A stretch of DNA of 64,000 nucleotides from Vitis vinifera (lineage: Eukaryota; Streptophyta; Magnoliopsida; Vitales; Vitaceae), in the NCBI RefSeq assembly GCF_030704535.1, contig NC_081821.1, positions 7,083,001-7,147,000 of the forward strand. Reading direction: 5' to 3'. Shown piece after piece: positions 6,568 through 45,682 of this stretch. The notes beneath the pieces are model-generated. The model did not search any database, was not told the DNA's origin, and was given only the letters and a program-made list of their open reading frames with translations. A program made the translations under genes and the position numbers. The number at the start of each line of letters is the position of its first letter. Within the stretch, counting starts at the first letter, position 1.

Positions 6568-6572
6568 ATGAA

Positions 6573-7378: not shown

Positions 7379-7383
7379 ATGAA

Positions 7384-10643: not shown

Positions 10644-10761
10644 AGTGTGTTTGATAGTGATTCTAGAAAACGTTTCTAATCTTTTTAACACTCGAATGAT
10701 AAAAATTTTCAAGTGTTAAAAATATTAGAAACATTTCCTAAAATCATTGTCAAACGAGCTC
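10644..10761. mobile_element. Tourist-like MITE between GST-a TATA box and coding region
   Basis: This 118 bp inverted repeat is flanked by TAA on both sides (10,641-10,643 and 10,762-10,764), as expected for PIF/Harbinger-type Tourist MITEs. The left end reads GTGTTTGATAGTGATTCTAG. The right end is roughly its complement (AAATCATTGTCAAACGAGCTC). A 119 bp relative lies at 53,333. Copy A lacks it at the equivalent place. Confidence 0.75.
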
Positions 10762-10792
10762 TAAGTTTATCATTCAGAAGGAGGAAAACAAA

Positions 10793-14030: not shown

Positions 14031-14078
14031 TGTTTCCCCAAGCATGACCTCGAGATTCAAGCATCACATTTGAGAGAG

Positions 14079-19145: not shown

Positions 19146-19159
19146 CACTACAAGAAAAA

Positions 19160-20500: not shown

Positions 20501-20531
20501 ATACTATTATCAAATAGTCCAAAACATAGTC

Positions 20532-20595
20532 TTTGCTACCAGCAGAGATTGGGGCACTTTCTCTTTTAGGGACATTAGATCTTCACTCAAACCAG
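20532..20595 (+). pseudogene. Captured leucine-rich-repeat exon fragment
   Basis: It reads LLPAEIGALSLLGTLDLHSNQ, a canonical plant LRR, ending at CAG before GTGGG, a plausible donor. Only about one repeat survives, so the parent (LRR protein or receptor kinase) cannot be named. It lies against the PPR fragment but is unrelated to it, so it is a separate capture. Confidence 0.55.
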
Positions 20596-20734
20596 GTGGG
20601 TAGACATTCTATATTCAGTTTAAGTATAAAATTTATCCGACCAGTGTCAAATTCTTCTGAGACTTCAGATATACCCTCTTTGAGTGATTTAACCTACATG
20701 TTATTTCTTCTTATCTTAGTTAGCTTCACATTTA

Positions 20735-21614
20735 CTAGCATTATGGCTGCCTGCGTGACCTTAGCATTTTTGAATTGTGGACAACAGATTCATGGGAGGA
20801 TTATTCGAAGAGGCCTTGATGGGAATTTGGCCTTGTCTAATGCCCTTATAGACATGTATTCCAAATGTGGAAATATTGCTAATTCGCACCAAGTTTTTGG
20901 GGGTATGTCTCGTAGAGATTTGGTTTCTTGGACTACCATGATGATTGGGTATGAGACTCATGGGTATGGAGAAGAGGTTGTTGAATTGTTTGACAAAATG
21001 GTCAGGTCAGATATTAAGCCTGACTGAGTCTTGTTTATGGGCATTCTTAGTGCTTGCAGTCATGCTGGACTTGTAGATGAAGGCTTGAGATATTTTAAAT
21101 TAATGGTGGGTGATTATAACATTAGTCCAGACTAGGAGATTTATGGGTGTGAAGTGGATTTGCTAGGACTTGCTGGGAAAGTTGAGGAAGCTTATGAACT
21201 CATAGAGAGCATGCCATTCAAGCCTGATGAGTGCGTTTGGGGGCCATTTCTTGGAGCTTGTAAAGCACACAGGTTTCCCAATTCCAGAAAATTAGCTGCT
21301 CATAGGATATTGGATCTGAGGCCTAATATGGCAGGGACTTATGTGATGCTATCAAATATATATGCAACTGATGGTAAGTGGGGGAGTTTGTAAGACTAAG
21401 AAAGTTGATGAAAAGAATGGGAAATAAGAAGGAGACTGGTAGGAGCTGGGTCGAGATAGGAAATCATGTCTATAGTTTTGTTGTTGGGGATGAGGTGGGC
21501 CCCAAAATAGAGGGGATATATCAAGTTCTGGAAAATTTGATTGGGCATATGAAGGAATCAAGGTATGTTCCTGATTTAGATTGCTTGATATATGACTTAG
21601 AAGATGGCACTTGA
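20735..21614 (+). pseudogene. Captured PPR (PLS class, E/E+ domain) gene fragment
   Basis: Plus-strand frames give PPR motifs ([61 protein letters not shown]). An E/E+ region follows (VMLSNIYATDGKW, SWVEIGNHVYSFVVGD, YVPDLDCLIYDLED). PPR-PLS proteins act in organelle RNA editing. Here the first part of the gene and any DYW domain are absent. TGA lies at 21,025-21,027, TAG near 21,134, and a frame change near 21,390. It is not a copy of the PPR gene at 50,109; the residues differ throughout. It is a host gene piece carried by the CACTA element, in the opposite orientation to the element genes. Confidence 0.85.
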
Positions 21615-22840
21615 GAAGCAGTTGAAGTCCAAAAGGTGAGAAAACCATATACAAATGGGGGATTGAAGAGAGTCATTTGATTTTTATGAACAACCTCGAA
21701 GTGGGTACTAGCAAGAAAGTTTTGAGGTGAATTGACCTTTCCATCTTTGAAAGAGATCCTATTTTATTATAACAGAGAAGAAGAATGATCTGTAGTAATA
21801 ACATGATGGTGTGCAACAAATAAGACATCTTATCAGATCAGCAAAGACCATTGTTTGTATATACAAAATTCACAATGTACTTATCTTATGACCTTAATTT
21901 GTACTACAACACATTAATAACCAAAGAGAAATGCATTGAAAGATTATTCTTCAACTTACTTGGTTGTGAGTGCCCTTTGTTGTTTGGGACAACTTCTAGG
22001 ACTGCAGCTTTAGATTTTGATAACATGTTTACAACCTCAAATCCATGGATGTGAAATGAAAGACAAGATGTGTTATTTAAAATGCATACCATGTAGGACT
22101 AAGACATTCAACTCCTAAACCAAATTCAGGTTGATACGATCTTTGAAAATTTTGAAATCTCAAATTTAATCACTAGCAAAGAGCTAACCTTAACTTGTTA
22201 TGGCATTGGCAAACCAAAAACTAATTGATGAGAGGAGATTTCCTTCCATGGTGAACACCATTTCAATGGAGAGGAAGAGTGGCACTTTCCTTTATGTTGG
22301 ATAACATTTCTATGAACCTGCAAGATTAACAAAAGGCAAGGTTAAACTCATTTTGTAGCATTACTAAGACAGCCAAGTAAAATCTGCTTTAGATAGATTA
22401 TGTATCATTTTTTATTCATAACAAGAATTTATACATGATTTTATACTCTAAAAATTGCAAGTGCTACAAATGTCACCCAACCTCTTGCAAGTAAAAAAAA
22501 AAACAACATTACTTTAAGTCTATATTTGAAATTTTACTAAAATGATATTAACATGTACCAAAATTTATACGAAAAGAATCCAACAAACATACATAATAAA
22601 AAAAAAAAACATGAATTAGTACTTTCATCAAATGTATCTTTTAAAAGATATAGGTATGTACCCAAAAGTATCCAAAACTTCAGCATCTATGCATGACAAT
22701 AAGATCTTACATATGATCTTGTCATCTCAAAATTGCAACAACTGCAAATGTCACCCGAAACCTTGCAAAGAGAAAAGATGCAACATTAATTGAAATTTAT
22801 GTCTGAAATTTTATTAAAAAATTATAAATTAACATACCCA
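21615..22840. repeat. CACTA 3' region with repeat units 4 and 5
   Basis: No gene. Units 4 (anchor 22,462) and 5 (anchor 22,741) repeat the CTACAAATGTCACCC/CTTGCAAG pattern of 19,885-20,500. On the minus strand these are downstream of the Ulp1 stop codon at 22,841, so they may be part of a repeated 3' untranslated region. The captured PPR piece sits inside this array. Confidence 0.5.
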
Positions 22841-24356
22841 CTATACTTGGTCTAAGATAAGAGTGCTCAAAAATGAGACCCATTCAGATCTCACTTCATC
22901 TAACTCAGCTCGTGAATAGGTTTTTTTCCTTCAAACTAAAATATATGACAAGAGAAAATATGTTATTGTGAAACATTAAATATATGTATAAGTTCTCATG
23001 TACTTATGAAAATACATAGGCAGATAAACCTGAGATGTTAAGAGACTTCTATTTGCAATTATGTCTCGCATGTATCGCATGACAAAATATCCGCACATGA
23101 CACCATCCAACTGTTTGGGCCCCTATGAGCAAAATTATAGCAACAAAATTTCACAATCAAATATGACATCATATAAATTTGGTCAATTTTTTCATCATTC
23201 ACATTTTAAATTTAAAAAAATAATGAATGACATAATGTTAGTTTCAAGTAAAATTTGCACCTAAATTATACTCAATACATGTCTAGCATAATACCTTAAG
23301 CTCCCATGTTTACAACTTGGAGGGTTAAATTAGGTAAAATATAAGAATGTACAATAACATGTCTATGTGAAATATGGAGAAAAAAAAAATGAATAGATAA
23401 AGGTAATGATTAATTATATTTATTAAGAATAGTGATTAACTTTAAAAAAATATAATAGTTAACTTTTGTCTATGTGAGAATATCCCTTAGAAAAGATCAT
23501 GACTTTGAAGACTTCATTAAGGTAAATCAATCAAGCTTCAAGAGCAATTATCGATAATATATTTCGAAATATGTAGTATTAACCTCATTTTACATCTCAT
23601 AGATTGACATTATAGAAGAGAAATGCAATTAGTAATTATAAGGAATAAATGTTTTACATATGAACAATTTGATTGAAGATGGATAAAAGAGTAAAGAGTT
23701 TTGATTAAAGAGAGAGAGAGAGAGGTTGTGCCTTACAAGAAACATCTAAACTAAATATAGGATGTATATAAGACATACTAAGGTTAAAAGAAAGATATAA
23801 AGAACAACTCACACCTAAGTAACATGATCAAAGCAATCTAAAGGATCCCCATTGCTTCCTTACCCACACACACATCTAAATTGTTCTAAAGGATTGTAAA
23901 TGCTATGGATATAGTGATCAAAATTTAATAATTGTTCTTCCTATGACCAACATTTCAAATTGACTAATTATGTATATATTAATTTTTTTATGCTTGAATT
24001 TTCTAAGGTTTGATCTTCCACATCATAATACAATTGAAAAAAGTCTTCTAGTCATGCATTTTAATTTAACAAAAATTTTACTATTTTTCTTCTAGTTTCT
24101 ATTACTATTTCTTGAAATATTAATTGTAAAAGGTAAAAATGGATCATAAATCTTTCAATCACATGAAAAAATGGGTTTGTTCTTTTTTAGTACTACTTCA
24201 TTAATTAATAGTGGAATAATGGACATATGAGTACATTGTATTCATAGCATTTTAGATTATATTTTTGTAAGGTAGTGAAACAAACATATATGGTATCCTT
24301 CTCAACTCAAGTTAGAAATAGGAAATAATAACAAAAACAATTATAAACTAAGAAAA

Positions 24357-24398
<42 letters not shown>

Positions 24399-27264
24399 TA
24401 TATATTCATGTGAGAGAAAGCCATATAGAATCTTTACATTTCAAAAATCAAGTAAATTTTCATTCAAGAAAGCAACTTAAATGTAGGTAAGTCTTTAAAA
24501 AGTTTAGGAGAAAAAAAAAATGTAACCTCAACAACCATCCACTTGAGCTCTTTTTTAGATCCTTTCTTCTTTTGAGATACAAAAATTCGAAACCCCCTAC
24601 AAAAAATAAGATTACATTAGTGTTCGTTTTGAGATATGAAAACTAAAATTATGGTAGGCTTACATGTTCACAATATCTTTTATATCTTGGTATAGCTGTT
24701 GCAATTGCGAGTCTAAATAGTAGACTATTTGTGATTTGAGGTCAATTACAGCCAAAACCCAATGAAACCTACAATATATTAACATATAATTTAGATAAAT
24801 AGCATTTATAAGGCTAAGAAATTAAAAACAATTATGATTAACAACTTACCTTGGGTTATATGGAAGAAAAACCAAGTCTGCCAATTTAGAGTCAATTAGG
24901 CGATCAGCAATGAACCTTGCTCTTTTTTCAATTTGTGGGGCTATTGTTCCAGCCTTGGACACCATTCCTGGATGAATAAATATAATTTTCTCCTGTAGTG
25001 TCTCATCCAGATGTTCATGCAACCGCCTAATGAAATATCACCCAATTTAGAATTACTTAACAAAAAAAAAAAAAAACAGCTTCTAACTTATTTATATCAT
25101 GAATGTAACATAAAGATTTACAACAAAATCTCACCAAATATAGAAACATATGCAATTCATAGTCAACTCTTTTGCAGAAATTACATCATTCATTTCACTT
25201 GTCAAGAGGAAAGTTTGAAATTTCATCCCAAAAACATTGATTGGAAAGTCAACTTTGGGTGCCGGTTTACCCTCCAACATTGCTGAAACTGTTTTAGAAA
25301 ACAGTTGTACATCTCTAGGATTCTCATATTTGATTTTCTTTGGGGATGCTTGTATCTTCTTCATTTTATTCTTCCTCTTGCCAACCTCCTAAACACATAA
25401 ATAGATGCATGACATTAAAATGAAAAATAAAGAAACCAAGAGTGTAGGAAAATATAACTCAACTTTGAAAGTTTGGGTATAACGTTATTCACCTCATCAT
25501 CATCATTTATCACAAATGCAATAGGCCACAAAACCTCATATCCAACACCCTCCCTTATTGTCCTAATGTTTTCAGAAAGTGGGAATGGAAGAAGTGCATT
25601 AGGTTGAAGAGGGTAAAGGATGACCACTAATATATCAGCACCATCAATGGAAATCTGTGAATCTCGTAAATAAGTTCCATATGCAACAATGTTATCTTCA
25701 GTTTCAAGAGCTAATTTGCATTTATAAACCTGTAAAAACATATTTTGTAATCCTTAGTCTTTCATTATAGTTATTTTATATATTGTTTTTATAAATTTAA
25801 CTTAGAAAAAGGCATATATACCTGAGTTAGTGGAGAAGCTTTTCGAGTCCCTTGTGCTGATAGGTTCTCCACATGAGCACTATCATGAGTCTTCCCTCCT
25901 ATTTCTTCATGTTGCAACAATTGTTTCCTTATGTTTGTGCTGCTCACTTCAGAGCGGGGTGTGAGGGGTTCTTTTTTTCCAGCTTTCAAAGCAATGATCT
26001 CCTCTTCCAAGCTCTTGACTTTCTCCATTAACATCCTTTGACATTCCTCCTCTTCAAGAGTTTTTGTGGGTTTTGGTGTGTTGAAGAATTGTTTGGGTTT
26101 TTTTTTTCCACCTTTTCCTCTAACCCGTCCAGGATGCTCTAATGTACCCAATGCTAAAGTGAGGATATCCTTTTGGCCAACACATGTGATCTTCCCTTCC
26201 TCAACAGCCTTTGTCAACTCATCCTCCAAAAAAATATGAGATACTTCAAAAGTCATATTAAATAAATAAAAAAAACAAATGAAATTGACTAAAACTAAGT
26301 ATAGGTTTGACAACTTACAATCTTTTCCACTACAGGCCTCGTAACTTCATCATATTCACCTTTTTTGAATCTTGCTAGCTTCCACAAGACCCATCTATCA
26401 ATAGGTTTCCTCGAACCTGTCTTTTGCATCTATCAAAAAACAAAAAAGTGAAGTAATTAAACTTTACAAAAGTAAATATCCAACAAAATAAAATATACTA
26501 ATTCAACTTACCAATTCTTCTTGAAGTCCTGCATATCCTTTCCTACTCACTCGATGAATATAAACGTATTTTGCCCTCCTTTCTTTTCCTTTTTTTGATT
26601 TAACTTGAAACTCTTTTGACAACCTATTAGCCACTAACTTTCTCCAGTCTTCAATTGGAATGTAATTATATTCAGTTGGTGGCTGCAAAAGATACTCGGG
26701 CTTATCCTTATAAGGTAGGATATACTCTTTTGTCAATCTGTGCCTGAATGACCTAAAGCTAGTCCCAATGGATGATATGACGTTGTTTTTGCTATTCTCA
26801 TCAACCAAGAATGCACCCTAAAATATAAGATCTTGATTATTTACACAAAATAAAAGAAAATAATTTCATTAGATTACTACATACTTGATAAAAAATTGAT
26901 TATTTAATAATCATGTCAGTCTACACAAAATATAGAAAAATAATTTCAATAGATTTCTATATGCCTTAACGCAATCCCATAATTTCTCCTTCAATTCCAC
27001 AGGCACTACTCTCCATTCAGTATGATAAACTGGCACCATGGTTCGTGCTAACACACCCATGTATGATACAAGCTGTACATATCCCTCACCCACTCCCTCA
27101 CCATCATCATTATATTGAATGTCAATTTTCAGTCCTTCACTTCTCTTTTTAGCAATTTCAGGTTTTAAAGTTGGGCCTCTTAACCTTTTTGGTGAGGTAA
27201 TCTTCTGTTTTCCTTCCTTTTCATCCATCTACATGACAATCAAAAGAATATGATTAATCTCATA

Positions 27265-27298
<34 letters not shown>

Positions 27299-27367
27299 CT
27301 TACATTCAAAAGTAAAACATGATATTTTAATAGTTACCTGCTTTTTATCTCTTATTGGTGGAGCCAT
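22841..27367 (-). CDS. CACTA second gene: En/Spm (Ptta-type) domain plus Ulp1-like C48 protease
   Basis: I can join eleven exons in consistent phase on the minus strand: 27367-27338, 27228-26971, 26817-26512, 26429-26319, 26223-25822, 25729-25493, 25388-25135, 25026-24850, 24768-24664, 24596-24527 and 23122-23030, all with GT-AG borders. This is 681 codons starting MAPPIRDKKQ. Exons 2-4 form the plant En/Spm (Ptta) domain (VPVELKEKLWDC, SFRSFRHRLTKEYI, RRAKYVYIHRVSRKGYAGL, RKPIDRWVLWKLARF). Exon 5 has a charged coiled-coil-like stretch. Exons 8-11 form a Ulp1/SENP cysteine protease fold: catalytic His in RFHWVLAVIDLKSQ, Asp in YYLDS, and Cys in VMCGYFVMRYMRDI (codon 23,093-23,095). Such enzymes cleave SUMO from proteins in the nucleus. 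The expected tail (YSRAELDEVRSEWVSFLS, stop TAG 22,841-22,843) is offset by one base from the nearest acceptor, suggesting a small indel in a run of seven A. Confidence 0.85.
24361..24397. repeat. (AT)n microsatellite
   Basis: About 18 AT units in an intron of the Ulp1-like gene. Other simple repeats in the element are (AT)n at about 19,712-19,735 and 27,276-27,297 and (AC)n at about 27,650-27,671. Confidence 0.9.
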
Positions 27368-28830
27368 CCGTAAAAATGTAGCACTTTTCTCCCAAGTTCC
27401 CAAATAATTCAGAATTAGGCAATAATAAACAACACTTGAAAATGTATCTCAACTAAATCTAAAGAAATTAGTTACGAAATGATTTCATAAGTATGAATAA
27501 ATAATTGTTGTACAAACTTTGCAATACATGAAAATTAATCTTAAATGTTGATTATGAAATATGCATAAAATTAATAGGCTAATCTATTGCTAAACCTCAA
27601 CAACAACATATCATCAAGTTTAAAGAAAATTACCATGACTTATCTTATAAACACACACACACACACACACATTCTACCATTATAGCTTAGTTAAATTACA
27701 TCTATTTTAGTCACTACTGTTATAAGGTCCTAATTGGAATGCATGTTTCTAGTTAGGATGCAATACTCATAAAATGAAGCTTAAGAGTGTGGGTTGAGGA
27801 TGCATTGCAAGGTGTTTGATTTTCCTACTATTAAGCATATAAGTATTAATCATATGTAATGAGATGTGGTTGCCTTAACTTTAATGATTCTAGGATACAT
27901 GGCTTCACTTACACAATATTGAGGATGGAGTAATGTCACTAATAGTTAACAATAACAAACCAAAGACTACATTCGTTGAAGTAAAATAAATTGAAGAAGA
28001 TTTTCTCTAAATTCACATAAAGTCAAAAATCCACCAAATTCACATTAATGAAACTTTATTTGAATTTTTTAAAACTAATGTTATTCAATTACACAAAAAT
28101 TGCAACTTGATCAATTATCTCTCAAAAGTTTTGTTCTCTAGCATAAACAAGTGACCTAAAACAAAGGAAGGAGCAAGAAAATAAAATTTATGGTATTCAT
28201 ACACCGTTTCAGTTGGAAATAAGAATATTCAACTATCAATTAAAACATATTTTTCCATTGTTAGATGACTCCTAACGAAGATCAACTTCATATAATGTAG
28301 GTTGTTATTATGTTTATAGTTAATTCATATATGTTATTTATTAATGTTTCAAACCGGTTCATTATGGGTTGGTGGATTCAATCTATCTTCCCATAAAACC
28401 TTTTGCTTTGTTTTGCATAGTACGTAGTTTAACACTTTGATTTAAAGTTTTTAATTCAAATCTATAGAAACCTTCAATGCAATTACCCCTTAAATTATTT
28501 AAAAGTTGAATCAATATGAAATAAGTGTGAGTAATGGCTTTATCTTGTCTAATCTTAAATTAAACATACAATATCAACATATAAGCAACATTTATTTAAC
28601 TACATATCAATTAAGCTCAAATGAAAGTTCAAACTATTCAAAATATATAAATATGATGCTAACTGCATTTATTTAGAATAGCTTAGCAAGTATATAATAA
28701 TAAAAATATATTTGACAAGAATAAAATAAAAACATAACATTGTTGAGCATCATATTGTATATTAACAATAACTCAAAAATCACATAATACACTTAGTAAT
28801 CACAATCACAACCAAAAAAAAGTATTAAGC
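27368..28830. other. Spacer between the two CACTA genes
   Basis: No gene seen. It is AT-rich. On the minus strand it is downstream of TNP2 and upstream of the ATG of the Ulp1-like gene at 27,367, so it should hold that gene's promoter. Confidence 0.5.
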
Positions 28831-31800
28831 TTAATTTTCAATCCAAATCCCCTCACAATCAGTACGCATACAAATTTCATCATAATCTTCAACTTCATCA
28901 AAAGACTTAATATTAGGCATCTCATTCGCAAATGGGTGATGCTCCATACAATTGTCGGCTATGTTGTCATCACCTTCTATGTCAAACAACTCCATTTTTG
29001 GCCTTGATAATACAATAGACCATCTTGGATCAACTTGATCTTCTACATAAAAAACTTGTTGGGCTTGCGTTGCCAAAATGAAAGGATCTGATTTATGTCC
29101 TATCTTGCTCAAATCAACTAATGTAAAACCAAGCTCATCAACTTTGACACCATTCTTGCTATCAACCCAATAACACTTAAAAACACAAATGTTAAACATG
29201 TTATAATCAAGGTCCCAAATCTCTGTGATAATCCCATAAAAACACGTCACCAAGCACAGGATTCTTATCTTTGGAACTTGCAATTTGCATGGTCGATGCC
29301 ACAATACTAACACCACTATTTTGGTTGACTCGTGCCTCATCACGGTTCTTGATGTGGTAACGACAACCATGAATGATATATCCAGGGTACGTAAGAACTT
29401 GTTGTCTTGGTCCTTGTGCAAGCCACTTAAGTTCCTTTTCAATAGGTTCTTTCTTGCTTATGTCATCTGAAACCTGTAAGGTTCATTGATGATATGTAAG
29501 TTAATGTAATTTAAATTTTGTAAGCATTAAATTTTAAGGGGAGCATGAATAGTTTCATACCTTTTTTCTAAGCCAATGACTAAATGTGCGCACATGTTCA
29601 TCCTCTAGCCACTTCACTCTTTTTGATTGACGAGGATATTTTGTCTTCAAATATTTCATATGTTCACTATCAAGCAAAAATAGGCAAGTCATGGTTTGTA
29701 TAAACATTAGTTAGAGTTTTAAAATCATATATTCATATATATGACACTTACTCAATAAACGGTTATACAATGGTTGTATTTTGTAGAACATAATGATGTG
29801 CTTGCTCCACCAATTTATAATCATGAATAGTTATTGCACGACCACCAAGTAATGGTTTCCCACATTTCCATTCATCTTTCATACTAGAAGGAATTCCAAT
29901 TGCATCCATGCCCGATAAATACTCTGTACAAAACTCTAAGGCTTCCTCAGCGATATAGCACTCAGCAATACACCCTTCTGGACGATTATGATTTCGAACA
30001 TAACCCTTCAGGACTTTCATGTACCTTTCAAATGGGTACATCCATCTCATATACACTGGTCCACATAATCTAACCTCTCTTACCAAATGCACTGTTAAAT
30101 GAAGCATGATGTCAAAGATGGAAGGTGGAAAATACTTCTCTAGCAAGCACAAAATCACCACTATGTCCTGTTGTAAATCATTCAATCTTGACACATCCAC
30201 CACTTTTGCACAAAGTGCATTAAAGAAAAAACACAATCTTGTAATGGCATATCTGACATGCTTAGGCAACACAGATCTTATTGCTACTGGTAGTAGTTGT
30301 TGCATAAGTGCATGATAATCATGGGACTTAAGACCATTAAGCTTTAGCTCTTCCATGGACACAAGGTTTCTAAAGTTTGAACAATAACCTTCAGGAACCT
30401 TTAAATCAGCCAAAGTCTGCAATACTATTTTTTTTTCCTTTCTACTTAGAGTATAACATGCAGGGGGAAGATAAGTTCGCTTCAACCCAAAGGTTGGTGC
30501 TAAGCCAGGCCTTAAGCCCATTTCGAGAAGATCAAGTCGAGACTTTACTCCATCCTTTGTTTTACCTGGAATGTTAAGCACGGTTCCGATGATGCTCTCG
30601 CAAACATTCTTCTCTATATGCATGACATCCAAGTTGTGTCGGATATAAAAATATTTCCAGTATTCAAGTTCAAAAAATATAGACTTCTTTTTCCAGCAAC
30701 TTGTAGGATTAGCAAAGGATTCACATTGTTTAACCTTCTTTTTCTTTCCCCATGAGTTATGAATCATATCAACTTTTGTAAATATTTCCTCTCCGGTAAG
30801 TTCTTTTGGAGGTAACCTAAACTCTTGTTCACCATTAAATGCCTTTTTTTGCTTTCTAAATGGATGATTGCATGGAAGAAACCTTCTATGGCCGGTATAT
30901 GAGTTCTTATTCCCATGTTTTAGCCAATGTGAATTTGTTTCTTCACCACATATTGGACAAGCATGATATCCCTTAACAGTGCAACCAGACAAGTTCCCAT
31001 ATGCAGGGAAATCATTAATCGTCCATAACAAAATAGCCTTTAATGTGAAGAACTCTCGTTGATGTGCATCATAGGCTTTCACCCCTACCTCCCACAATGC
31101 TTTCAAATCATCGACTAATGGTGCCAAATAAACATCAATATCCTTACCAGGCTGTCGTGGTCCTGATATTAGCAAAGATAACATCATGAATTTCCTCTTC
31201 ATACATAACCAAGGGGGAAGGTTGTAAGTTATTGTGAGAACAGGCCAACAACTATACCTACTGGTCATGGAGCTATGAGGATTGATACCATCTGCTGAAA
31301 TAGCAAGTCTAAGGTTCCTACAATCTGAAGCAAATTCAGGCCACATTTGGTTCACTAGTTGCCATGTTGGGGAATCCACTGGGTGTCGAAGCTTACCATC
31401 ATTTTCTCTACCTTTTGCATGCCATTTTAGGTCTTTGGCTATTTTGGGAGATTGAAACATCCTCTTAAACCTAGGGATGGGTGGGAAATACCACAACACT
31501 TTTGCAGGAATCCTCTTAGTGTTTCTTGCCCCAACTTTGTTTACCTTCCACCTTGACGTTCCACAAGTAGGACATAAAGATGCATCATTTAACTCATTCC
31601 TGTATAGTATGCAATCATTTGGGCATGCATGTATCTTTTTGTATTCCATCCCTAATGCATTCAATGTTTTCTTTGCCTCATACATGGATAAGGGCATCTC
31701 ATTGTTGACCGGTAGCATATCCCCTAATATTTGGAGTAAATCTGAAAAACTTTTATCTGACCACCCATACCGTGCCTTCACATTGTACAATTTAACTAAT

Positions 31801-32231
31801 GCAGAAAGCTTTGTGAACTTTATACAACCAGGATACAAAGGTTTTTCAGCATCTTCAAGCAATTTTTTAAATGACATTGGGTCAGTCATGAACTCATCAT
31901 CTATAACATGAACCATTTGTACTGTACTAGCAACGTCACCACAATCCATCGTGTCATAACATTGTGTCATTTCAGTTGGTTGTCTACTAGTAGGACCTGC
32001 TTCTCCATGCCAATACCATGTATGATAACTTTGGTCAATACCATTGAAAAACCTATGTTCCCGAATCTTGTTAGGTGTATGATGTATTAAGTTTCCACAT
32101 CGCATACAAGGACAACGAATTCCACTTTGATTCGGACAATGTTCTAATGCAAAATTAATGAAGTACTCAACTCCTCCCTCATACTCCCGTGACATTCTAT
32201 CTTTAGACATCTAACTTCGATCCATTCTATG
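28831..32231 (-). pseudogene. TNP2-type CACTA transposase, nearly complete
   Basis: Exons on the minus strand are 32231-29752, 29666-29561 and 29473-28831, with GT-AG borders. The order of parts is a transposase-associated zinc-finger-like domain (CPCMRCGN, residues about 10-70), then the Transposase_21 catalytic core with acidic residues in SADGINPHSS (about 308), DIDVYLAPLVDDL and DVMHIEKNVCES (about 530). A DUF4218 region follows (YFPPSIFDIMLHLTVHL, MRWMYPFERYMKVLKG), then a C-terminal DUF4216 region (WDLDYNMFNICVFKCYWVD). The core is open for 815 codons from the ATG at 32,210. Three lesions are visible. TAG stands for an expected Trp just before that ATG (MDRS-stop-MSKDRM). TAA at 29,763-29,765 replaces an expected Gln (TTIV-stop-PFID). 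One extra base lies in an A run at 29,238-29,242. The protein would nick and move CACTA ends in the nucleus. It is probably inactive now, or supplies only a truncated core. Confidence 0.88.
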
Positions 32232-34440
32232 ATTGAAATACACAATGAATTAATCATGAGGAATTTTAACATTAGTGTTGTGTCATATATCAAAAGGATT
32301 CATCATGTAATATAGCCATGTTGTCTACAAGTATATCAAAGTGAGATAGTTAATTATAAAAATTGTCATATTCAATTCATGTCATTGTAGGTAATGCCAC
32401 AAATTATCCATTTAAAATTCCTATTAGTTCATGATATTTCATCATATTAAATACATTTAATTTCATTAGGTATTGAACCAAAGTAAAAAATGTGGTTCTC
32501 TTATAGAATTATGATCCTATCTAGTTTATGCACTACCATACAAATGAGAAATAAATATATGTTACACTTTTTCAAGTCTTTATTCAATAGCGAATCGTCG
32601 AAGATCATTTATTATGCATATTTCTGTAAAATTAAAATAAATTTATATATCAAAATATTAAACCAAGAAACATAATTAACTCTCATGATTCTATCTTGTT
32701 AAACTAAAATCAACTTAAACTACATGTCTTATGCATTCTAACATCTCCAACTTCCTAGTTTAGGTGGTGGTTCCTATCCCATATAGGAAAACATAATCCC
32801 TACATGTCAACTACTATTATGTTTCGTTTCATTTTAGAAAAATTTCGACAGCATTTCCCTATAGTTCTCCAAGTACACAAAATGGAGAAGGCATATTATT
32901 CAGCCTTGTCCAAATATGCACCTAGAGAACAAAAGGAACGAATGTCGAAATTTCTAAAAAATGAATGAAGCATAAGAGCGTAACTTCAAAGATATTATGT
33001 TTTCCTTATATTGTCCAATTGGACAATTCAAGCATCATTTGTAGAAAAAAAAGTCTCATTCACATGCTAGACTAAGTTAGAAGTTGTCAACTTCAAACTA
33101 GTTCATCAATGAACCATTTGCATTCTTTGACAACTTAAATGTCCTTAGCATGTAATAAGAGAAATTTTTGTCATACAAGGATGCTAGAACGGGAAGTCTA
33201 ATGTTTCATGCATGAACTTATTTAAATTCTATCTAAGTATCCTTAACACATTAAAATGAAATACATTTAATTCCTTTAACATATTTGTTATTTGCCTAGT
33301 AGCGGAAAAAAGAAATATATTTACTTGAAAACTCATGAGTAGAGAAATTTAATTACACTTGGCCACAAACAAACAAAAGTTAATACTCAAAATATAAAGT
33401 CATCAACGTCACATTCAATGGAATCAAATTAAATCAAAAGTAAACCCACCCACTAGACCAAATCTACTAACCATCAAATAACTCAACTACAAGTTTGATT
33501 ATATATGTTCAATTTCCTTAAAAAAAAAATGAAGTATTGACAAGTTAGAGTTTCATGGGAAAGTATAGAGAGAGAGAAACAGGAGAGAGTAAAGAATTAC
33601 CTTAACAAGACTTGTCCCTTGAAATTGTCCTCTAGTGATTGAGAAATTAAAAAACTAACCCATGATTAGGAGGACCTGCATTTTTGGTACAAGGATATGA
33701 GCTTTTAAACAACAAATAGAACATCAATATCCATTAAAACTCTTAGTTCTTTTTCCCCTTGTTTGTTTCCTTTTTTCTTATCCAGGTTTCATGTTTCTTG
33801 TTTTACTTTTTGGATAAAAAGATAGGATCATCATTACGTACCCATGCAGTTTGAGAAAGCTTTGCTTATTTCTACAATGGGTTGGTAATTGTGGACCATT
33901 ATTACATAGCAATAAAATATTTTCTAATGAATTTTGTAATAAATAAATTAGAATTATAAAATATCCATTTTTAATTTATTTATGATATTTATTTTATAAT
34001 ATTTTTCTTTCAATAATTTTAGAATTTTCATATTTAATGTTTATCTTTTTCATATAAACAATTTTTTATTAATAAATAATTTTACCATAAAATTTGTCAT
34101 GTTTTTTAATAAATTGTTTATCATTGCTTTCATAATAATTATAAATAAAATACTATTTCAGAGAGAAATATCATTGATCAGCCGGCTCCAACACAAAATT
34201 CGTAACCAATTATTGGTCCACAGAAATTTTGGTAAATTTTCCAAAATCTATCTGATATTTCGATATTAATCGGTATTTTTATCGATTTTTCGGAAAATTT
34301 ACCGATATTTCGGAAAATTTACCGATATTTCCTACTAGTCCAAGCCACGCACAGGATACAAAATCTGTCTGTTTTTTTTTTAAAAAAAAAAAAAAAAGAC
34401 ATAACATGCTATTCAATAATATGACCATGATTTGCAGGTA
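32232..34440. other. TNP2 upstream region
   Basis: No coding gene. The acceptor TTTCAATCATAG just before 32,231 implies a 5' untranslated exon further right. A candidate is about 33,602-33,700 (minus strand, ending AAG before GTAATTC). At 34,255-34,340 there are short direct repeats of CGGAAAATTTACCGATATTT. Confidence 0.4.
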
Positions 34441-34930
34441 AATGTTGAGTTTTTTAGCCTGCCTAAAAAATCGTGGAGTTAGGGTTCATAATATTTAAAT
34501 CCAATGACACAAAAGCTAAGAGACCCTTACAACACATCCAGAAACCACACAAAGCAAAGAAAAAAGCATTTTTTTTTTTTTTATGGTTTTCCATGGGGGT
34601 TTTGCATGGATTGTCTCCGAAATCAACAAAGGAAGGATCTTCCTGGAAATGGAATGGGTGATGGATTTTCATGAGAATCAAATGGAGATTGCAATAATAA
34701 TAATAGTAATAATAAACTTATTAGAATAGTACCTGCGTTGAATGAGAGTGGCAGAGGAAACAATGGCCTTTTTGGGGATTCTCTCTTGTGGAAGGCAACT
34801 TCAATGAGAGTGGCAGAGGAAACAATGGCCTTTTTAGGGATTCTCTCTTGTGGAAGGCAACTTCAAAAATGGCTTATTCATGGCCGAGTCAAAGGAAGTG
34901 GGTGCCTTTTTTATTTTTAGATTTAGTACA
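34440..34930 (-). pseudogene. Unidentified gene-like fragment with 62 bp tandem duplication
   Basis: The composition is richer in GC than the neighbours. On the minus strand it reads KRESPKKAIVSSATLI twice, because a 62 bp unit (34,741-34,802) is repeated in tandem at 34,803-34,864 with one mismatch. The frame then reaches a GTAC donor-like site near 34,733. No family recognised. It lies inside the CACTA element and is probably another captured exon. Confidence 0.4.
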
Positions 34931-35789
34931 AAAAAAAAAAAACAATGAAACAAATTATGAGAAATTTCGCTTGATGAAATCAGCAATTTTGCTTTCTAAA
35001 GGCCATATTTTAGAAATTAAAATTAATTTCATAAGATAATTTATTAATAATTTTAATAAATCTCAAATGAAATATTTGATATAAATTAATTTCATTTTTC
35101 ATTTAAAATGTAATAAAACATGTTATGATAAAAGTATTTTAAAAATTTGAAAATAAATATTGTCTTCAACAAAATAGGCTCCCTTCATCTAACAATATGA
35201 TAGAACCATATCGATCTTCTTTTTGATACTAAGTCCTATTGCAATGTCATATGTATAAATTATTTTTATTCAATAAAAACAAATATTTTTTTAACTCTAT
35301 TATAACTTTATACATTTCCAAAATGCATATTTATTATTCTTAAAATTGAAATATTAAATCTACCGATATATGTTTGTTTATCTATGTTTTTTTCTTTTTA
35401 TCACATCTATGTCAATTATACTTACAAAATAATTTCAAAATGTATATTGTTGCTTATTTTATCATTTTTACAGTTTTTTCGAGCATTCCTATGAATGTTA
35501 AATAATTTTTGCTCCATCCATATTTGTGAAAAAATATTCATTGATATTTTTTTGATATTTTCGATATATCCCTAAAATCGAAGTATCAATATATTCGTAA
35601 TTATTGGTATTTTTATTATTGATTCTAATTATATATATAAAAAACGTTTAAATATATAGCAACAACTTTTTATGGATTTTTTTCCCACTCAACACCTTTT
35701 TTATGGATTTTTTTCCCACTTTTTATTTATTTTTTTCTCCACCGATTGGGACCAATGTTCAATATTTTGACAAGCTATAAGTAGCTAAC

Positions 35790-36095
35790 AATTTAGGGAT
35801 GATGATTGGAGAGATGACATTTTCTCCACTATCCTATAGCCTATAAGTAGTCTTCCACTTCCCATCTAGCATGCAGCATTTAAGCACTTGATAGTTAGGA
35901 TGCTGATGACGTGACTCCACTACCTCCAAGGCTCTACTCTAAACTTTTCCAACATTGCCTTTACACTTGTAGGATGCTAGGATAACATGTCCAATATATT
36001 TTTCAAGAGCCTCTTTGTCATGCTTCTTGCAATTTTGGAATTGAGTAAACGTATACTCATTTAGTATCTCACTACCAAGACCACCAGTTGGAATA
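35790..36095 (-). pseudogene. Unidentified captured gene fragment
   Basis: The minus strand gives a coding-like run of about 85 codons with one internal TAG. It includes PTGGLGSEILNEYTF, HDKEALEKYIGHVILASYKC, and after the stop SRALEVVESRHQHPNYQVL and CCMLDGKWKTTYRL. The amino-acid make-up and codon use look like a real protein, unlike the AT-rich surroundings. I do not recognise the family. It may be a host gene piece or part of an older transposon protein. Confidence 0.45.
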
Positions 36096-36099
36096 ATGG

Positions 36100-38180
36100 G
36101 ATATTTAAAAAATAATAATATTTTTTAATATAACATATATTATAATCTAGATTACATAACATATTAGAAAAGGACTTATGAAGTTTTAATATAACATTTT
36201 TTTTTTCAAATTTCACATTCATCAATTTTCTCTCCCCTAATTTTCTTAATACATTCTCTCCTCTAATTTTCTTAATAGAATCTTTTATTCGAGAAATTCA
36301 AGATGGAAATGAAATTTTAAAGCTTATTGTATTAATATATATATTTTTTAAATGGCTAATGAGAAAGATCACTGTACTTTGAAGAATTGAAATAATATAT
36401 ATATATATATATAATGGTATTACAACTTGACCAATAATCCAAAATTAAAATTGAAATAGGGAGGTGCATTCATCCATCTCTTATAATTATTATAATAAAT
36501 ATAAAGACAAACACATATTAGAGAATCATAAAACAAAAAGAAAGCTTAGAAGGAGAGAAAATAAGAAAAAAATAAAATAAAGTAATCTCAAAACAGACAT
36601 TTTATAGTTGGAGAGAGAACCTTTTGTTTTATGAGGTAAGAAAATTTAGTCAATCATAACAATATTTTGTAATAGTTCCACCGTACCATTCAAAATATAG
36701 TTTCATTTTTAAAAACTAAATATTATTTTTAGAAATTAACAACATTATCAAATAATTGTTTTTTCATTAACAATATAGGGAGCTTTTTAAGAGCAATTTT
36801 TTTGCCTTTTTTTAAAAAAAAAAATTGAAAAGATTAAATAAATTAAAAATTATAAAATACAAATAAAGGAAAACACAATACTTTAAAATTATATTTTGCT
36901 TCATCTAGTTTTCATTTGATATTTAGTTAAACAAGATTTATATTTGTTTTCCAATGAATTCTTATTTATAATTTAATATGGCATCCAAATACAATAATAT
37001 ATAAGAAACATAATGAATTTCTACATCTTATTTAATTTCTATATCAACATTTCAATTATAATCCTAATGAAAACATTTTTTACAAAGTGATTATGTATAT
37101 GGTAATGTGTTTTTTTTTTTTTCTTAGAATATTATAAACCTTGTATTTTGTTCTCTTGACACATTCCATATAAGATTGTCCTCCTACATCCTTTGATGCT
37201 TTAGTGTGCAATAGTGGTCATTTTTTAAGTTGTGTTTAGCTCTTATTAATTGATGGTCCACTAAGACTATATTGATCACTAGTTTTGGATTTTCAATTAG
37301 ATATTTTGGAGAGACTAAGTGGATCCCTATTTTGTGTGTAGTGACCCTTAATTATTAGTTTAGGACTTTGTTTTTTTTTTATATATATTATTATTATTGA
37401 TTTACAGCATATTTAGGTTTGTTTAGAATTCTAAAACCTTAATTCTTACAAATAAATTCATGTTTTAAAATAATATAATAATTGATATCATATTCTTTAA
37501 AAATATAAAATACAATAAGGTTTTGATAATGATTTGGAATGAGTTTTTTCTTCTTTTTTTTCTTTTTTTTTTCTTTTTTAAGAATGATTTAATAAGATTC
37601 AAGTTTTTTTGTTAACTTTATCTTATAAATTATAGAAATTGAGGTATTAATCAATATATTGAATGATTAAATTGAGAAATAATATATTAAGGTTATTAAA
37701 TATATATTCAAAGCTTTATTTTATGATAAAATAATTTAATTTTTTTAACATCACAGGAATCCTAAATCAAAATAAAGATTTTAGTTTATTAATATATCAA
37801 AGCAATTCTCTTTTTAATACTTTATGGACCAAAAACAAAATTAAAATTTGAGTTTATTATGGTTATCTAATTCATGTCTTAAAATATAAAACAAAATGTG
37901 TTATTTTTTTTTTTTATAATAAACATGCCAAAATAGTTATTATTTTTAGATATCATGAATCATAAGTAAAGTTTATATGATATTAAAATTCACATATCAA
38001 AACATAAAATAAATTAATTTTCTAAATCAAAAACAAATATGCAACTTGTATGATTTTATGAAATATTTACACTTAGATTTCATTTAATTTAAAACATACC
38101 AAACACACCTTAAACTAACCCATGCATCAACCATCCATCAATAGTAGCCTAGCTTCCCATTTCTCTCACCCATCAATTGT
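36100..38180. other. AT-rich CACTA internal DNA
   Basis: No gene seen. Long T and A runs, such as the (T)n tracts near 37,550-37,580 and 37,905, and an (AT)n tract at about 36,393-36,412. Confidence 0.5.
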
Positions 38181-39556
38181 GCTTTGTTGCTACTTGTTAC
38201 TGCTCATATTTCAGATGGCTTAAAACGTATCTGCCATACCACTCTCTCTTTAAAGCTTATGTTTAGTTGCTCAAGACAAGTGCTTCAGACCATGCCATAC
38301 CCTGCAACAACCTATTCTTTAGGCAATCAAAAAAAGCCTATCCCTACCACCTTCATCAGACATCACGCCTCTTTCTTCTGACACAGCCCATGCTTTGGGC
38401 TGCCAAAAACCCATTTGTCATAATGATATCCATGCTTCCCGTCCATTAATTCTCCCTCTTTATCCCTCCACACATGCACATTTAGATCAGCAGCACCTAC
38501 TCTCACTGTGATGTCGTCTTCTTCTTTCCTTCAAACTAAACACCATAGCAGTTTCAATATGCAGCAAATGATTCGTGAAGAGGTGGAGGGGATGGCTCGA
38601 CCCAAACGTTTTTTTAGCTCATCATGTAGAACTCGGTTGTCAACTCCATCGGAACTCACCGTGGGGAATCCGACATGCAACAAGTGTTCAGCTCTTGTTT
38701 TAGATATTAATTTTTGTGGACTTTGGGGTAAATCAATTGAATTAAAACAGTTTTTGTTTCAAGCTTTATGGTCTGAGGGCCATTTTCCTTCCTGGGTCTG
38801 ATTCCAGAAGTGGGTCTTGTGGCACCGGTGTTTTCTTCCCTCGTGGAACCGGCAACCCTTTAGATTCACGCAAGAAACAGGGTACCATTTTCGCCCATTT
38901 GGGTCGTTTGAGCCTTTTCTTAACCTGCTTATTGTCTTCTCTCTCTGTCTGATCTGTTACTATTCATTTAAAAATACACCTCCACTGCATTAAATATCCA
39001 CAACTTGCTTTGAATTTTGATTCTTTTCATGGCATGGTTTGATTTCAAAGATTCTGATTAATCTTCTGGTTTCTATTTTTTTTATTTCTTGGATATAACC
39101 TGACAATGTGAACCGGAATAGTTCTTTTGGGACCACTTGCCGGGTCTTTTCACAGATTTTCTTCTTGCATCTTTGCCGTTTGCTTTCCCATGTTCTCATT
39201 TTTCCTTTTTCTAATGGGCACTTGGGAGTTGTTCTAATTGTTGTGTCCTGTGGTTTAATCAGGATGCTCCACTGCCCTTATACCAGCCAGAGTAGCCCAG
39301 GCCCTGAAACTCAACTTTGATGAAATGGGTGTTGTATCACCATCACTGGGTGGCCGTTTCTCTCTGCAACATGGTACTATACAAACTTCCCTTTGATAAT
39401 TGATCTTTTTTTTCAATAAACATCTTGTTGATAATCACTGTAGATGCGGCACCAGGGCGAAGGAACAGCCTGTATCCACCGCAGAAGCAGCACTGGCCGG
39501 CGCCTCCTGCAATGAAGCACCAGGAGATGGATGTTCCTCGGGGATGGACTCACTGA
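38181..39556 (+). pseudogene. Captured three-exon host gene (unknown plant protein), introns retained
   Basis: Three exon-like blocks join in phase. The first ends at 38,881 (GSCGTGVFFPRGTGNPLD, then SRKKQ). The second is 39,263-39,373 (GCSTALIPARVAQALKLNF and SPSLGGRFSLQH). The third is 39,444-39,556 (DAAPGRRNSLYPPQKQHWP and MDVPRGWTH, then TGA). Borders are G/GTACC, ATCAG/GA, ATG/GTACT and TGTAG/AT. A 5' block from 38,508 (MSSSSFLQTKHHSSFNMQQM) is out of frame with the first block by one base near 38,800. The CGTGVFxPR and CSTxLIPARV motifs recall a family of uncharacterised plant proteins, named only by memory. Intact introns mean it was copied as genomic DNA, not from mRNA. The flanks to 40,490 probably come from the same locus. 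Confidence 0.65.
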
Positions 39557-40129
39557 CACTTGATGAAGCCCCTCTAATCTTATGATGAAATGCTCAAGTC
39601 ACATAGAAAAAAGGAAAAGGAAAAAAATGATAGACAATGATCAAAAGCAAAATATTGCTGAGATTTTTCTTCTTTGGTTTTTCAGGATTTCAAGGGTGAG
39701 AATTTGGAAAAAGGAAAGGAATAAAAGTTGTCTGGGAGGGAAAAGTAGAGAGTCTATAAGGGTTATCATTAGGAATGATGATGATTTAGGTACGATTAGT
39801 GGTTGGTGGGGGGCGGGGATTGGCCTTTTGGAAAAGCGCTTGTAATAATGTTAGAGATGTTAACAAAAGAGAGTTGCCCTGCTTACATCTCTTTGTTTCC
39901 TCTCTTCTACCAGTACCATTTTAGCTTTAAATAATTTCCCCTTATTTTTTGTATGGTCAAGAAAATGTTTGTTGTGAAACTAAAAATTGTTCCTTGAAAT
40001 TTGCCCCTTTGTTTATGCAGTAGTATGTGTATTGCCCTTGGAATATAATCATCAAAATGTGACGTGAAATATCACAGTATGGTGCATACTTCTTTTATAA
40101 GATGAGCATATTTGTATGATAGAGGATGT

Positions 40130-41165
40130 AGAAATTGCAAGGAAGTTAGACGGCGAGAATAGCGGTGGAATCAGCCGTTTCGGGGGTGAGGAGTGAGGAC
40201 TGTGGGATTAGGTGTGGGCCGAGTCCGTGACTTGTTGGGTTGGCATCAAACCCAGCTGCAATTTTCCTTTGGCTTTTTCTTTGGTCCTCGTCTCCCTTTT
40301 CTTACACCAGAGACCACGCTGTGGAGAGTGGACTTTGAGAGACGTGGACTCAGATTCTTTTCCCACGATAGAATACATCTCCTCCCACTCGCTCAATGCA
40401 TAGTCTTTCTTCCCTTTTGTTTTTGTGTGTGTGGTTTTGATTTTCTCATTCCTTTTTCTAAATCTAAGTCAGTCAAGGATTAGGATGATATACAGTAGAA
40501 TGACAATGACGAGGCTCTTTAAATTTTTTCTAGGTCAACCTGGGCTCTAGATTGGATGGCTTGGGCCTACTCATATTGCAATCCTAATGAAAATTTCCAA
40601 AAAAAAAAACCCAAGATATAGTAAAATCATTTCAAATGAAACTTTTTTTTTTAATTAAAACTATATTTGTTAAAACTTAATATTAAGTTAAATTATGTTT
40701 AAGCTTTAAGTCATTAATTTGATTTATCAAAATTAATTTTATTTTAATTTATAATATTAAGTTATTATATTAGACATAATTTTTTTTATGGTTGGGAAAT
40801 TTTTTTTATATAATTGGTGAAGTTTGTTCACTGCCCTTGCCTATCAATACAGCTTTATTGGGTGAACCATTTGAATCATTTTGTTTATGCGTTTGTGATT
40901 TTATGTTGTTTTCTTTACTTATTTTTTGCATGTCATTTACTAGAATTTGGAATGCTTCTGTTTTTCTTGTAAGTTGTATGGATTAAAAAAACTGTGGCAA
41001 TGGTATTTGAGCTGGAGGCTCAACACGCAGTATTTGGGTGAGTTTAAGCATGGCGTTGAGGTGGCCACCTTGAACCGGAAAAGGGAAGATGAGGACATAG
41101 GGAGAGTCCATCCATCTCGCTTTTGGTCCACAATCTCAAGGGTGATATCCTATTACTAACGAGAT
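40130..41165 (+). other. Probable host-derived DNA within CACTA
   Basis: The segment of about 40,130-40,490 is richer in GC, like a host promoter or 5' leader. A second piece at about 40,940-41,160 has a short coding-like run (KLWQWYLSWRLNTQYLG, EFKHGVEVATLNRKR). No family recognised. Between them the DNA is AT-rich and empty. Confidence 0.3.
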
Positions 41166-41486
41166 TTTGAGTTCGTTTTTCCAACTAATAATTTCTTCAG
41201 AGACAACCCTGTGCTTCACTTTCTTTTTCAAGCTTGGTCTGTCATCATTTTCAGGCAGTAGCCTTTGGTATGTGCTGCATCCTTATATTCCACTTCTCCC
41301 ATGTGTTCTTCAATAATCTGTGGTCAACATGTATTGTTTCCTTTTGTTTAAAATCTAAAAAAATAATTACGATTTAGAAATAACTTTTTATTAGCCTTCC
41401 ATACATGGTGCAACTTGTACATTCCACTTCTCCCAGGTGTTCTTTAATAATATGTGGCCAACATGTCTTGTTTCCTTTTGTTTAAA

Positions 41487-42085
41487 GCACTCGTCCTCAT
41501 CACTCTAGGCAGAAACGACTTTGTCAACAACTACTACTTGGTGCCCAACTCTACAAGATCTCGCCAATTTACTCTTCCCAATTATGTTTGCTATCTCATC
41601 TCCAAGTGCCGAAAAAATCTAATGGTAATTCTCCCCAGCATGTGTTACATTTTGGCCTAATCTGCATAAAATATTCACTATTGAATCTAATGAGGAATTG
41701 GGGATGAGTTGAGGGCAAATGCATTATGGTATTGCATATATGATAGTCTATCACAAGAGACTTGTTTTGGTAGGTAGAGACACTTGTTACATTAGAGCCT
41801 TTTCCAATGCATGTAAACTTTATAAATAAGCACTATTACTATTTTGTGCGTTGGGTTGTCCCATTTTCTAACAAAATACAATGTATTAATGTTATATATT
41901 TTAGTGACTTATATGTATGGTCTAAACTTATGGTTGCAAAGGCTATATAAGCTTGGAGCACGAAGGGTTTTTGTGACGGGCACTGGACCAATGGGGTGTG
42001 TACCAGCAGAACATGCCATGAGGAGCAAAAACAGAGAGTGCGCAGCTGAATTGCTGCAAGATCAAAGACGGAGATTTCATGGGCC
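41487..42085 (+). pseudogene. Captured GDSL esterase/lipase fragment
   Basis: Two exon pieces of a GDSL-type lipase, usually secreted plant enzymes. The first, 41,487-41,634, reads [18 protein letters not shown] and ends ATG/GTAATT. It corresponds to conserved block III, where the usual GGND is GRND here. The second, 41,940 to about 42,085, reads [20 protein letters not shown] then VPAEHAMRS and ECAAELLQ, the GxGPxGC block. The exon carrying the GDS serine motif and the C-terminal SxxH block are missing. The 305 base intron between the pieces is kept, so this is a genomic capture. It lies near the CACTA 5' (right) end, in opposite orientation to the element genes. Confidence 0.85.
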
Positions 42086-42839
42086 TTTCACTTGGCTTTA
42101 ATTTCATGTTCCTTTGATTAATGTTCTTGAACCTTGAGTAAGCATTCCTTGCACAACCCGAGCTCAAGATCAAAGAAATTTTCATTCATATTTAAGGTTA
42201 GATTATGGACAACCTCATGCCAGTGGTCTATATCATATTATGAGATCAAAGCATCCTTAGGACTTAGATAAGAGAGAATTAAAAATATTACATATTTTAT
42301 TTCCAACCTTTTATGCATAAATATAAAACAATTTCATTATCTTAAAATTATAATTAATGAAATTTGATATACAATTTTTATGTCTTCTCTTGTTGTCCAA
42401 ATGAATTATATAATGGTACTTCTAAACAGTACCATAGTTTCCTAAAATAATTAAGGACCACTTTTTTTTAAGTTCCAAATTTTCCTAAAATACTATAATG
42501 AATTTTTTCATAATTATTATGGTTGCAATAATAAACCAAATAAAAGGAAGTCATGTTACATCATTTAATAAATGTCATAAAAAATGCAAAAAAACAAAAA
42601 AAAACAAAAAAAAAAACAAAAATTTAAACCCTATAAAGGACATATATTTGCAAAGAGAATAAATATCTAATCCAATAAATTTTCATGAAAAATATTTTAA
42701 CTTTTCACAAAATTTTTAATGGTGGCCTCTTAGGATTTTCTTTCAAGTTGCTTCTAGATGGGAATGGGTCTAGATAGAATTAAAAGAAAAAAAAAATGAG
42801 AAGTGAGATTTTCAATATTTACTAATATAGCCTTAATAG

Positions 42840-43230
42840 ATTTATAAATGAAATTACATTGACTTATAAATTATTTGTCAAGATAGCTTTTACCAACCTT
42901 GACATACGAATATTTTAACTATATATATTGACTTATAATTTTTCTATCAAGATTGTATTACTATAAATTAAAGAAAATTTTAGCAAATTCCATATATGTC
43001 ATTATTGCCTTTATTTAGCTACCTTGACATACAAATATATTAATTTTATATTGACTTATAAATTCTCTGTCAAGGTTGCATCGTTATAAGTCATGGAATA
43101 ATAACTGGAATTCATATATGTCATTATTTCTTTTAACTAAGTTTTATATGTCATAGTTGTCCATTTAAATAAAAAATATTGACATATACTACTTTAAGTA
43201 AAGATAATATATGTCAACAATGACTCTTTT
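42840..43230. repeat. CACTA right subterminal repeats
   Basis: Repeated TTGACTTATAAATT, CTTGACATAC and ATATGTCATTAT motifs lie in both orientations, matching the left-end array in type. The stretch of about 42,100-42,840 before it is AT-rich with no gene. Confidence 0.65.
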
Positions 43231-43243
43231 TCTTGTAGTGATA

Positions 43244-45123: not shown

Positions 45124-45682
45124 TGTTAAAATCAATCAAGATGAATACCCTAATTTCATATATACTGGAATATTTAACAAGGTGAATACCCTAATTTCAT
45201 ATATACTGAAATATTTAACAAGGTGAATACCCTAATTTCTTATATACTGGAATCTCCTGATTAAAAAAATGAGTAGAAAAATAATAGCGGAAGCATACCT
45301 GAATCCATTGAAGGAGAAACCTTATAGGAAGAAAACCCTTTGAGATGGTCTTCCAATTCTAGCCACTAGATTCTGAGTCAATTTCTCTCTAAGAGGATTT
45401 TCAAAAATTGGAATGCGTAGTCGTAGAATGGGGACCATAACCCTATTTATAAACCGCTACGGCAGTTTTAATTTTATCACAATTATATTTCTACCCCTCA
45501 TAGAAATAATAATTGTCTAATGGTATCTACACAATAATCTCATGACAATTATACCCTTAAGCCAATTAATCAATTATTAATTAGATCACTATATTTAGGC
45601 TTAATTAAATGATAGCACACACATTTTAATTATTTACATGTGTGGCCCAAATTATAGATTAATTACAAAAATTAATCTAACA
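45124..45682 (-). repeat. Copia 5' LTR (right end), 559 bp
   Basis: Ends TGTTAAAATC and AATCTAACA. It has three tandem copies of the 41 bp GGTGAATACCCTAATTTC unit against two in the other LTR, which accounts for the 41 base length difference. The flanking TTATA lies at 45,683-45,687. Confidence 0.92.

Follow-up and report, generated by a model that had tools for sequence, protein, structure and literature searches.

In a stretch of Vitis vinifera DNA of 64,000 nucleotides (contig NC_081821.1, positions 7,083,001 to 7,147,000 of the forward strand; hereafter the window) we identified a complete CACTA transposable element of 24,095 bp (positions 19146-43240 of the window, minus strand with respect to its transposase gene) which carries pieces of six host loci, located on five chromosomes. 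Elements of this type were shown, as far as sequence comparison of their copies can tell, to be recombinants of two lineages, one of which provided the left part with pieces of pentatricopeptide repeat (PPR) and leucine-rich repeat (LRR) genes, and the other the right part with pieces of Rab-GTPase, UDP-glycosyltransferase (UGT) and GDSL lipase genes. As a whole, the element is likely to have arisen through captures of host DNA during break repair, captures within captures, recombination between lineages and later transposition.

The analysis followed an original prediction, made from the letters of the window, that a single CACTA element had captured multiple unrelated host gene pieces. This observation was confirmed in part and its interpretation was supported in part, as described below.

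Structure of the element

The element has intact ends. The sequence CACTACAAGAAAA, the start of a CACTA-type terminal inverted repeat (TIR), was found without mismatch at 19146 (plus strand) and 43240 (minus strand), and ATA stands on both sides as a target-site duplication (TSD) of 3 bp, the length found in the CACTA (En/Spm) superfamily. The two ends have 14 exact bases in common, beyond which their similarity is imperfect. These limits replace the span of 20532-42085 to which the element had been assigned.

An open reading frame (ORF) of 815 aa (29763-32210, minus strand) encodes a transposase of the tnp2 type, also characteristic of the superfamily (Transposase_21, 3.2e-96; DUF4218 and Transpos_assoc were also matched), and a further ORF of the transposase region (28831-29442, minus) contains DUF4216 (5.4e-21). 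The proposal that the element has kept both of its own genes is well supported for tnp2, but the putative second gene region (24600-27380, minus) gave only Transposase_24-like and Peptidase_C48-like matches (3.2e-4 and 0.0021), both under the Pfam cut-offs.

Captured pieces and their parent loci

Four whole-genome DNA searches (495.6 Mb, 21 contigs, given here as C numbers) covered positions 19146-42140 and were complemented by four short re-queries, after which the parents were aligned; the search scores the best candidates only, so that sequence without a match may still have a counterpart in the genome. The parents of the captured pieces were found on C4, C6, C13, C14 and C19 (two sites 1.8 Mb apart). 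Because they are distributed over five chromosomes, the pieces do not represent one captured locus.

The left part of the element contains the LRR gene piece (20529-20730, plus strand; parent C19:3145966-3146166, 95% identity) and the PPR gene piece (20723-22419, plus; parent C14:751990-753652, two blocks with 96% and 95% identity, 96% being that of the main block). The name LRR, softer than the others, is based on the translation of the parent as read and on LRR Pfam matches under the cut-off, approx. 2 kb downstream at the parent locus. Upstream of the parental PPR gene lies a Glyco_hydro_100 (invertase-like) coding sequence (L033:1-1600); of the C14 locus, only PPR sequence was seen in the element. 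The window also contains, 7 kb from the element, an open PPR gene of 643 aa with an E motif and a DYW deaminase domain (50109-52040), which did not match the captured PPR piece at the DNA level in the 60 longest rows of a self-comparison.

In the right part, two segments (38675-38770 and 40805-41039, both plus; 94% and 93% identity, respectively) match the same intron of a Rab-GTPase gene (C19:1321914-1322291), which is flanked in the parent by two Ras-family exons; this piece is therefore intron-only. It is interrupted by a piece of an unknown gene (38770-40781, plus; parent C6:6525386-6527400, 97.8%). A three-exon unknown gene had been placed at 38.2-39.6 kb, and the piece itself is real; its bounds are, however, 38770-40781, and the first exon, near 38.5 kb, is foreign to the C6 gene. 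For the region 38440-38680, 24 of the 25 genome matches fall at sites to which further parts of the element align as well, and the remaining one (C1:19.85 Mb) matches 38440-38680 only. An additional fragment at 35.8 kb was dropped as a capture: all of its matches (22 of 22) lie at places matching other element stretches, and neither a Pfam match nor a host parent was found for it in these searches.

Next to the Rab piece lies the 5′ end of a UGT gene (41034-41258, minus), related to a gene cluster at C13:4.17-4.30 Mb (best match 85-86% over 41077-41319; UDPGT, 1.4e-25, in a neighbouring ORF of the parent). The tail of this match (41259-41319) recurs in CACTA right-end sequence and may be the element's own sequence. 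The C13 UGT gene is itself adjoined by approx. 61 bp (L038:4294-4354) resembling a CACTA right end, a remnant that perhaps offered homology for the capture. The last piece is derived from a GDSL lipase gene (41485-42060, plus; parent C4:15720501-15721080, 93%), whose Pfam match (2.5e-6) emerges only after two part-exons are joined. A locus at C16:3.81 Mb (L053), considered as a further source of captured DNA, was recognized as the right end of another, related CACTA element.

Thus the LRR, PPR and GDSL lipase pieces of the original prediction were verified by their parents, and two pieces, the Rab-GTPase intron and the UGT 5′ end, had been overlooked. Capture at the DNA level was borne out by introns, a 3′ flank and the intron-only piece, all of them collinear with the parent loci, and mRNA was rejected as the source on these grounds. 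Donation in the opposite direction, from element to host, is unlikely, since the edges of the pieces are junctions within the element and the host genes run on past them. Five of the six pieces are indeed oriented opposite to the transposase gene, but this number is too small to mean much. In the element, the host DNA probably travels as a passenger.

Copies in the genome and captures within captures

The copy in the window (W) was compared with others, which are named after their contigs: C9, C15, C11, C5, C19, C12, C1 (9.52-9.55 Mb), C13b (20.55 Mb), C16a (7.64-7.67 Mb), C16b (0.66-0.68 Mb), C17b (16.81-16.83 Mb) and C17c (11.50-11.525 Mb). W, C17b, C17c, C9 and C15 form what we call the W group. 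The LRR-PPR junction was found at 10 places (the whole W group, C1, C5, C12, C19 and C16a), the Rab piece in the W group, C11 and C16b, and the C6 piece in the five copies of the W group. Matching TSDs border both ends of W (ATA), C17b (AGA), C9 (CCT) and C11 (CAC); those of C15 and C17c were assessed from one end only. W, C17b and C9 are located at different sites with 3-bp TSDs of their own, and therefore the loaded element was transposed as a unit.

The copies lacking individual pieces reveal part of the order of events. The Rab piece is uninterrupted in C16b, and in C11 the place of the C6 piece is taken by 32 bp, there following the intron of the C19 parent. Since both copies read like uninterrupted intron, the C6 piece must have entered a Rab intron that had already been captured. 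Together with approx. 12 bp of filler at its right edge (40782-40793), in which TTTATGG of the left target is repeated, it replaced these 32 bp of Rab sequence.

The left array was also built by insertion into captured DNA. The order in C17c is PPR-LRR-PPR, with 724 bp of the LRR gene in place of 49 bp of the PPR gene, and in the sister copies the LRR piece (20529-20730 in W) is 724 bp long. At position 20530, C17c contains approx. 818 bp more than W, and so do C1 and C5 by alignment, and C19 and C16a by spacing. This extra sequence consists of approx. 40 bp without assignment, PPR upstream sequence and then LRR gene; it is missing from W, C15, C9 and C17b, which is most simply explained by later loss.

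Other losses were also observed. The PPR piece contains an internal deletion of 0.7 kb across a perfect 7-bp microhomology, and the GDSL gene span is approx. 2.2 kb in C11 compared with 576 bp in W. C11 has also kept approx. 1.2 kb of right-end sequence (L042:171-1391) which is missing from W.

Junctions and the mechanism of capture

Microhomology of 0-7 bp, or else a short filler, marks the junctions of the captured pieces, where transposon ends were not observed. The junction between the Rab and C6 pieces has 1 bp of microhomology (3 bp when compared against C11). Among the seven parent loci examined, five are free of element sequence beyond the captured piece itself, and the other two, both on C13, have only short stretches of it.

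These features point to breaks within the element that would have been repaired by copying short segments of unlinked chromosomal DNA, either by gap filling or by template switching with end joining. Such a process fits the unlinked parents, the collinear introns, the small loss of target, the microhomology or filler and the absence of transposon ends. In this way host DNA would have piled up in two non-coding modules of a CACTA element of the tnp2 type, and later breaks inside captured DNA would have given rise to captures within captures.

Two other routes have to be weighed against repair. In the enclosure model, which the accessible part of a 2026 review gives as proposed for the Pack-CACTA elements of Arabidopsis and rice (PMC13317346), two insertions lying close together, with terminal deletions that complement each other, are fused around the chromosomal DNA between them. 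In the present element, pieces sit inside pieces within a full element, their parents are spread over five chromosomes, and the near absence of element sequence at the parent loci is likewise at odds with enclosure, which we consider improbable here.

Somewhat less probable still is the arrival of the pieces in nested transposons. Helitrons and Mutator-like elements are known from the literature to carry gene pieces, and the repeated TTTATGG (7 bp) bordering the C6 piece could be read as a target duplication; at that site, however, approx. 30 bp of target were lost as well. At the junctions examined (no search dedicated to Helitrons or Mutator-like elements was made) gene sequence meets the element directly and the parent gene continues past the cut, and no terminal repeats were found at the seams with element or with other captured sequence. 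Moreover, comparison of C11 with the C6 and C19 parents suggests that the C6 piece had no termini before its capture.

A mosaic of two element lineages

The nearest relative of W changes along the element. In the left part (22425-26290) its distance is 0.8-0.9% to C19 and C5 and 5.8% to C11, and in the right part (36600-38680) it is 2.4% to C11, 5.8% to C1 and 8.8% to C5. Trees of the two parts differ accordingly, with the W group joined to C5 and C19 on the left (8 copies, support 100/100) and to C11 on the right (11 copies, support 100/100; C16b covered under half of the columns). The approximately unbiased (AU) test rejected a grouping with C11 on the left (p 3.7e-6) and groupings with C5 (p 4.5e-7) and C1 (p 5.5e-7) on the right.

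When sites differing between C1 and C11 were used to place the exchange, the best-fitting crossover was located at 29760-29801, at the 3′ end of the tnp2 ORF, with 621 of 815 informative sites in agreement. This exchange united the PPR-LRR array with the Rab-UGT-GDSL array, and the assembled element was then transposed to new sites. Exchange probably occurred more than once, since C1 and C5 differ by approx. 1-3% on the left and 8-15% on the right (covered sites outside repeats). The idea that the pieces were captured by one element thus holds in so far as all six are present in one, but one array was built in each of two lineages, and elements of the W type combine the left array of one with the right array of the other.

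Serial capture in one lineage, with unequal rates accounting for the difference between left and right, would agree with the presence of both arrays in all five copies of the W group. The switch of the nearest relative, from C5 on the left (0.9%, against 5.8% for C11) to C11 on the right (2.4%, against 8.8% for C5), and the rejection of any one grouping for both halves make it very unlikely. Large young repeats are difficult to assemble, but an assembly artefact or collapsed repeats can practically be dismissed given the LRR-PPR junction at 10 places, the C6 piece at five and matching TSDs at both ends of four copies.

Several points weigh against the history proposed here. The repair step is inferred from the scars alone, and microhomology is not general among them: the PPR/LRR junction has a 1-bp insert, and the LRR/PPR junction is blunt, with no more than imperfect homology. 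The best UGT parent is just 85-86% identical, so that a different copy, or one since lost, may have been the real donor. When the region 33600-43240 was scanned with Pfam in all six frames without splicing, no match was obtained at E 0.1. In C13b and C1, a 132-bp GDSL stretch follows straight after 38683 without Rab sequence, which leaves the order of assembly of the right array unsettled. The clades compared in the AU tests were picked once the distances were known, and a single crossover leaves 194 of the 815 informative sites unexplained; some of them lie in repeats at 19.1-24 kb, and some may reflect gene conversion. Either lineage may have been the donor in the exchange, and either the recipient.

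We tentatively propose, as a possibility that need not be the likelier one, a modular evolution of large CACTA elements, in which unlinked gene pieces acquired by break repair are stacked in left and right cassettes, newer ones entering older ones, recombination in the transposase gene shuffles the cassettes among lineages, and multi-gene loads would be obtained through exchange rather than serial capture.

Insertion site and other features of the window

The CACTA element interrupts a Copia retrotransposon (15471-45682, minus strand; RVT_2, rve and gag domains), whose long terminal repeats (LTRs; 15471-15975 and 45178-45682) differ at 5 of 505 positions. When the Copia flanks were joined they formed one continuous open frame, whether the second ATA was kept or removed. 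Since the Copia element is interrupted and its joined flanks read through, the CACTA insertion is the younger one. Plant substitution rates are 0.65-1.3e-8 per site per year, at which the LTR difference of 1% corresponds roughly to 0.4-0.8 million years.

A cluster of glutathione S-transferase-like genes (2071-15189) consists of repeated units, two pairs of which are 90-94% identical and approx. 8.7-9 kb apart; GST_N was matched in one ORF (2e-19). Tandem arrays are located at 57772-58078 (three 102-bp units) and 62181-63037 (three 287-bp units). Scans of the 64-kb window for tRNA genes and Rfam families gave no match.

Comparison with known elements

The family of W is probably Cactavine-5 (EnSpm-5_VV) of V. 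vinifera, matched here by its published description. The accessible part of that description gives a CACTA element of 21-25 kb with a 3-bp TSD, a 23-bp TIR and a Ulp1-like region, in which a PPR coding sequence with its 3′ UTR (untranslated region) had been captured opposite to the transposase in two copies (PMC2528002, 2008). The length of W (24,095 bp), its TSD (ATA) and its PPR piece on the plus strand, with tnp2 on the minus strand, agree with this; the Peptidase_C48 match (E 0.0021) remained under the Pfam cut-off, and the ends of W share 14 exact bases followed by imperfect similarity, the TIR of the family being 23 bp long. Unlike Cactavine-5 as described there, W contains LRR, Rab-intron, C6, UGT and GDSL pieces, a nested capture and a mosaic structure.

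Multiple fragments are also known from soybean, where the 5.7-kb CACTA element Tgm-Express1 is, according to the portion of the report consulted, composed of gene fragments, five of which come from unrelated host genes, introns included (PMC1947982). W resembles it in having several fragments with introns, but is 24 kb long and has kept a tnp2 gene. The Chenopodium CACTA elements, as far as their description was available, encode a transposase and have fragments of host genes in their non-coding 5′ part, a gene being represented by one fragment or two per element (PMC8978399); both combine gene fragments with a transposase, but the pieces of W come from six loci. Pack-TYPE elements (Pack-CACTA), defined in the available text as non-autonomous, have CACTA ends around captured gene DNA and were then multiplied (PMC8903248). 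W is like them in its captured host DNA from six parent loci between TIRs, and unlike them in containing an 815-aa tnp2 ORF, where Pack-TYPE elements have no transposase gene.

For the animal Pack-TIRs, gap filling or FoSTeST has been proposed, with breakpoints marked by microhomology or by short insertions formed de novo, and a small internal gap replaced by filler from elsewhere (PMC8277862, as excerpted). The scars in W are alike, although W is a plant element and the same excerpts leave the applicability to plant Pack-MULEs (Mutator-like elements) open; the portion seen of the 2026 review leaves room for a mechanism, yet to be discovered, by which DNA transposons capture unlinked genes (PMC13317346).

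According to these partly available sources, PPR capture in the probable family (2008) and a CACTA element with five fragments in soybean are known already. In the literature on capture, its mechanism, recombinant elements and stepwise acquisition (with most subscription journals outside the scope), the present array was not described in titles or abstract openings. The present analysis adds five further pieces, the parent loci, the mosaic structure and a partial order in which the captures took place. One genome has preserved the parents, the sister copies, the nested captures and a relative that lacks the most recent capture, so that the scars of repair and some of the order of events are open to direct reading, and the gene load was partly gained by recombination between element lineages. 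The process is a known one that can be followed here in good resolution, and the element is an above-average test case for the mechanism of capture.

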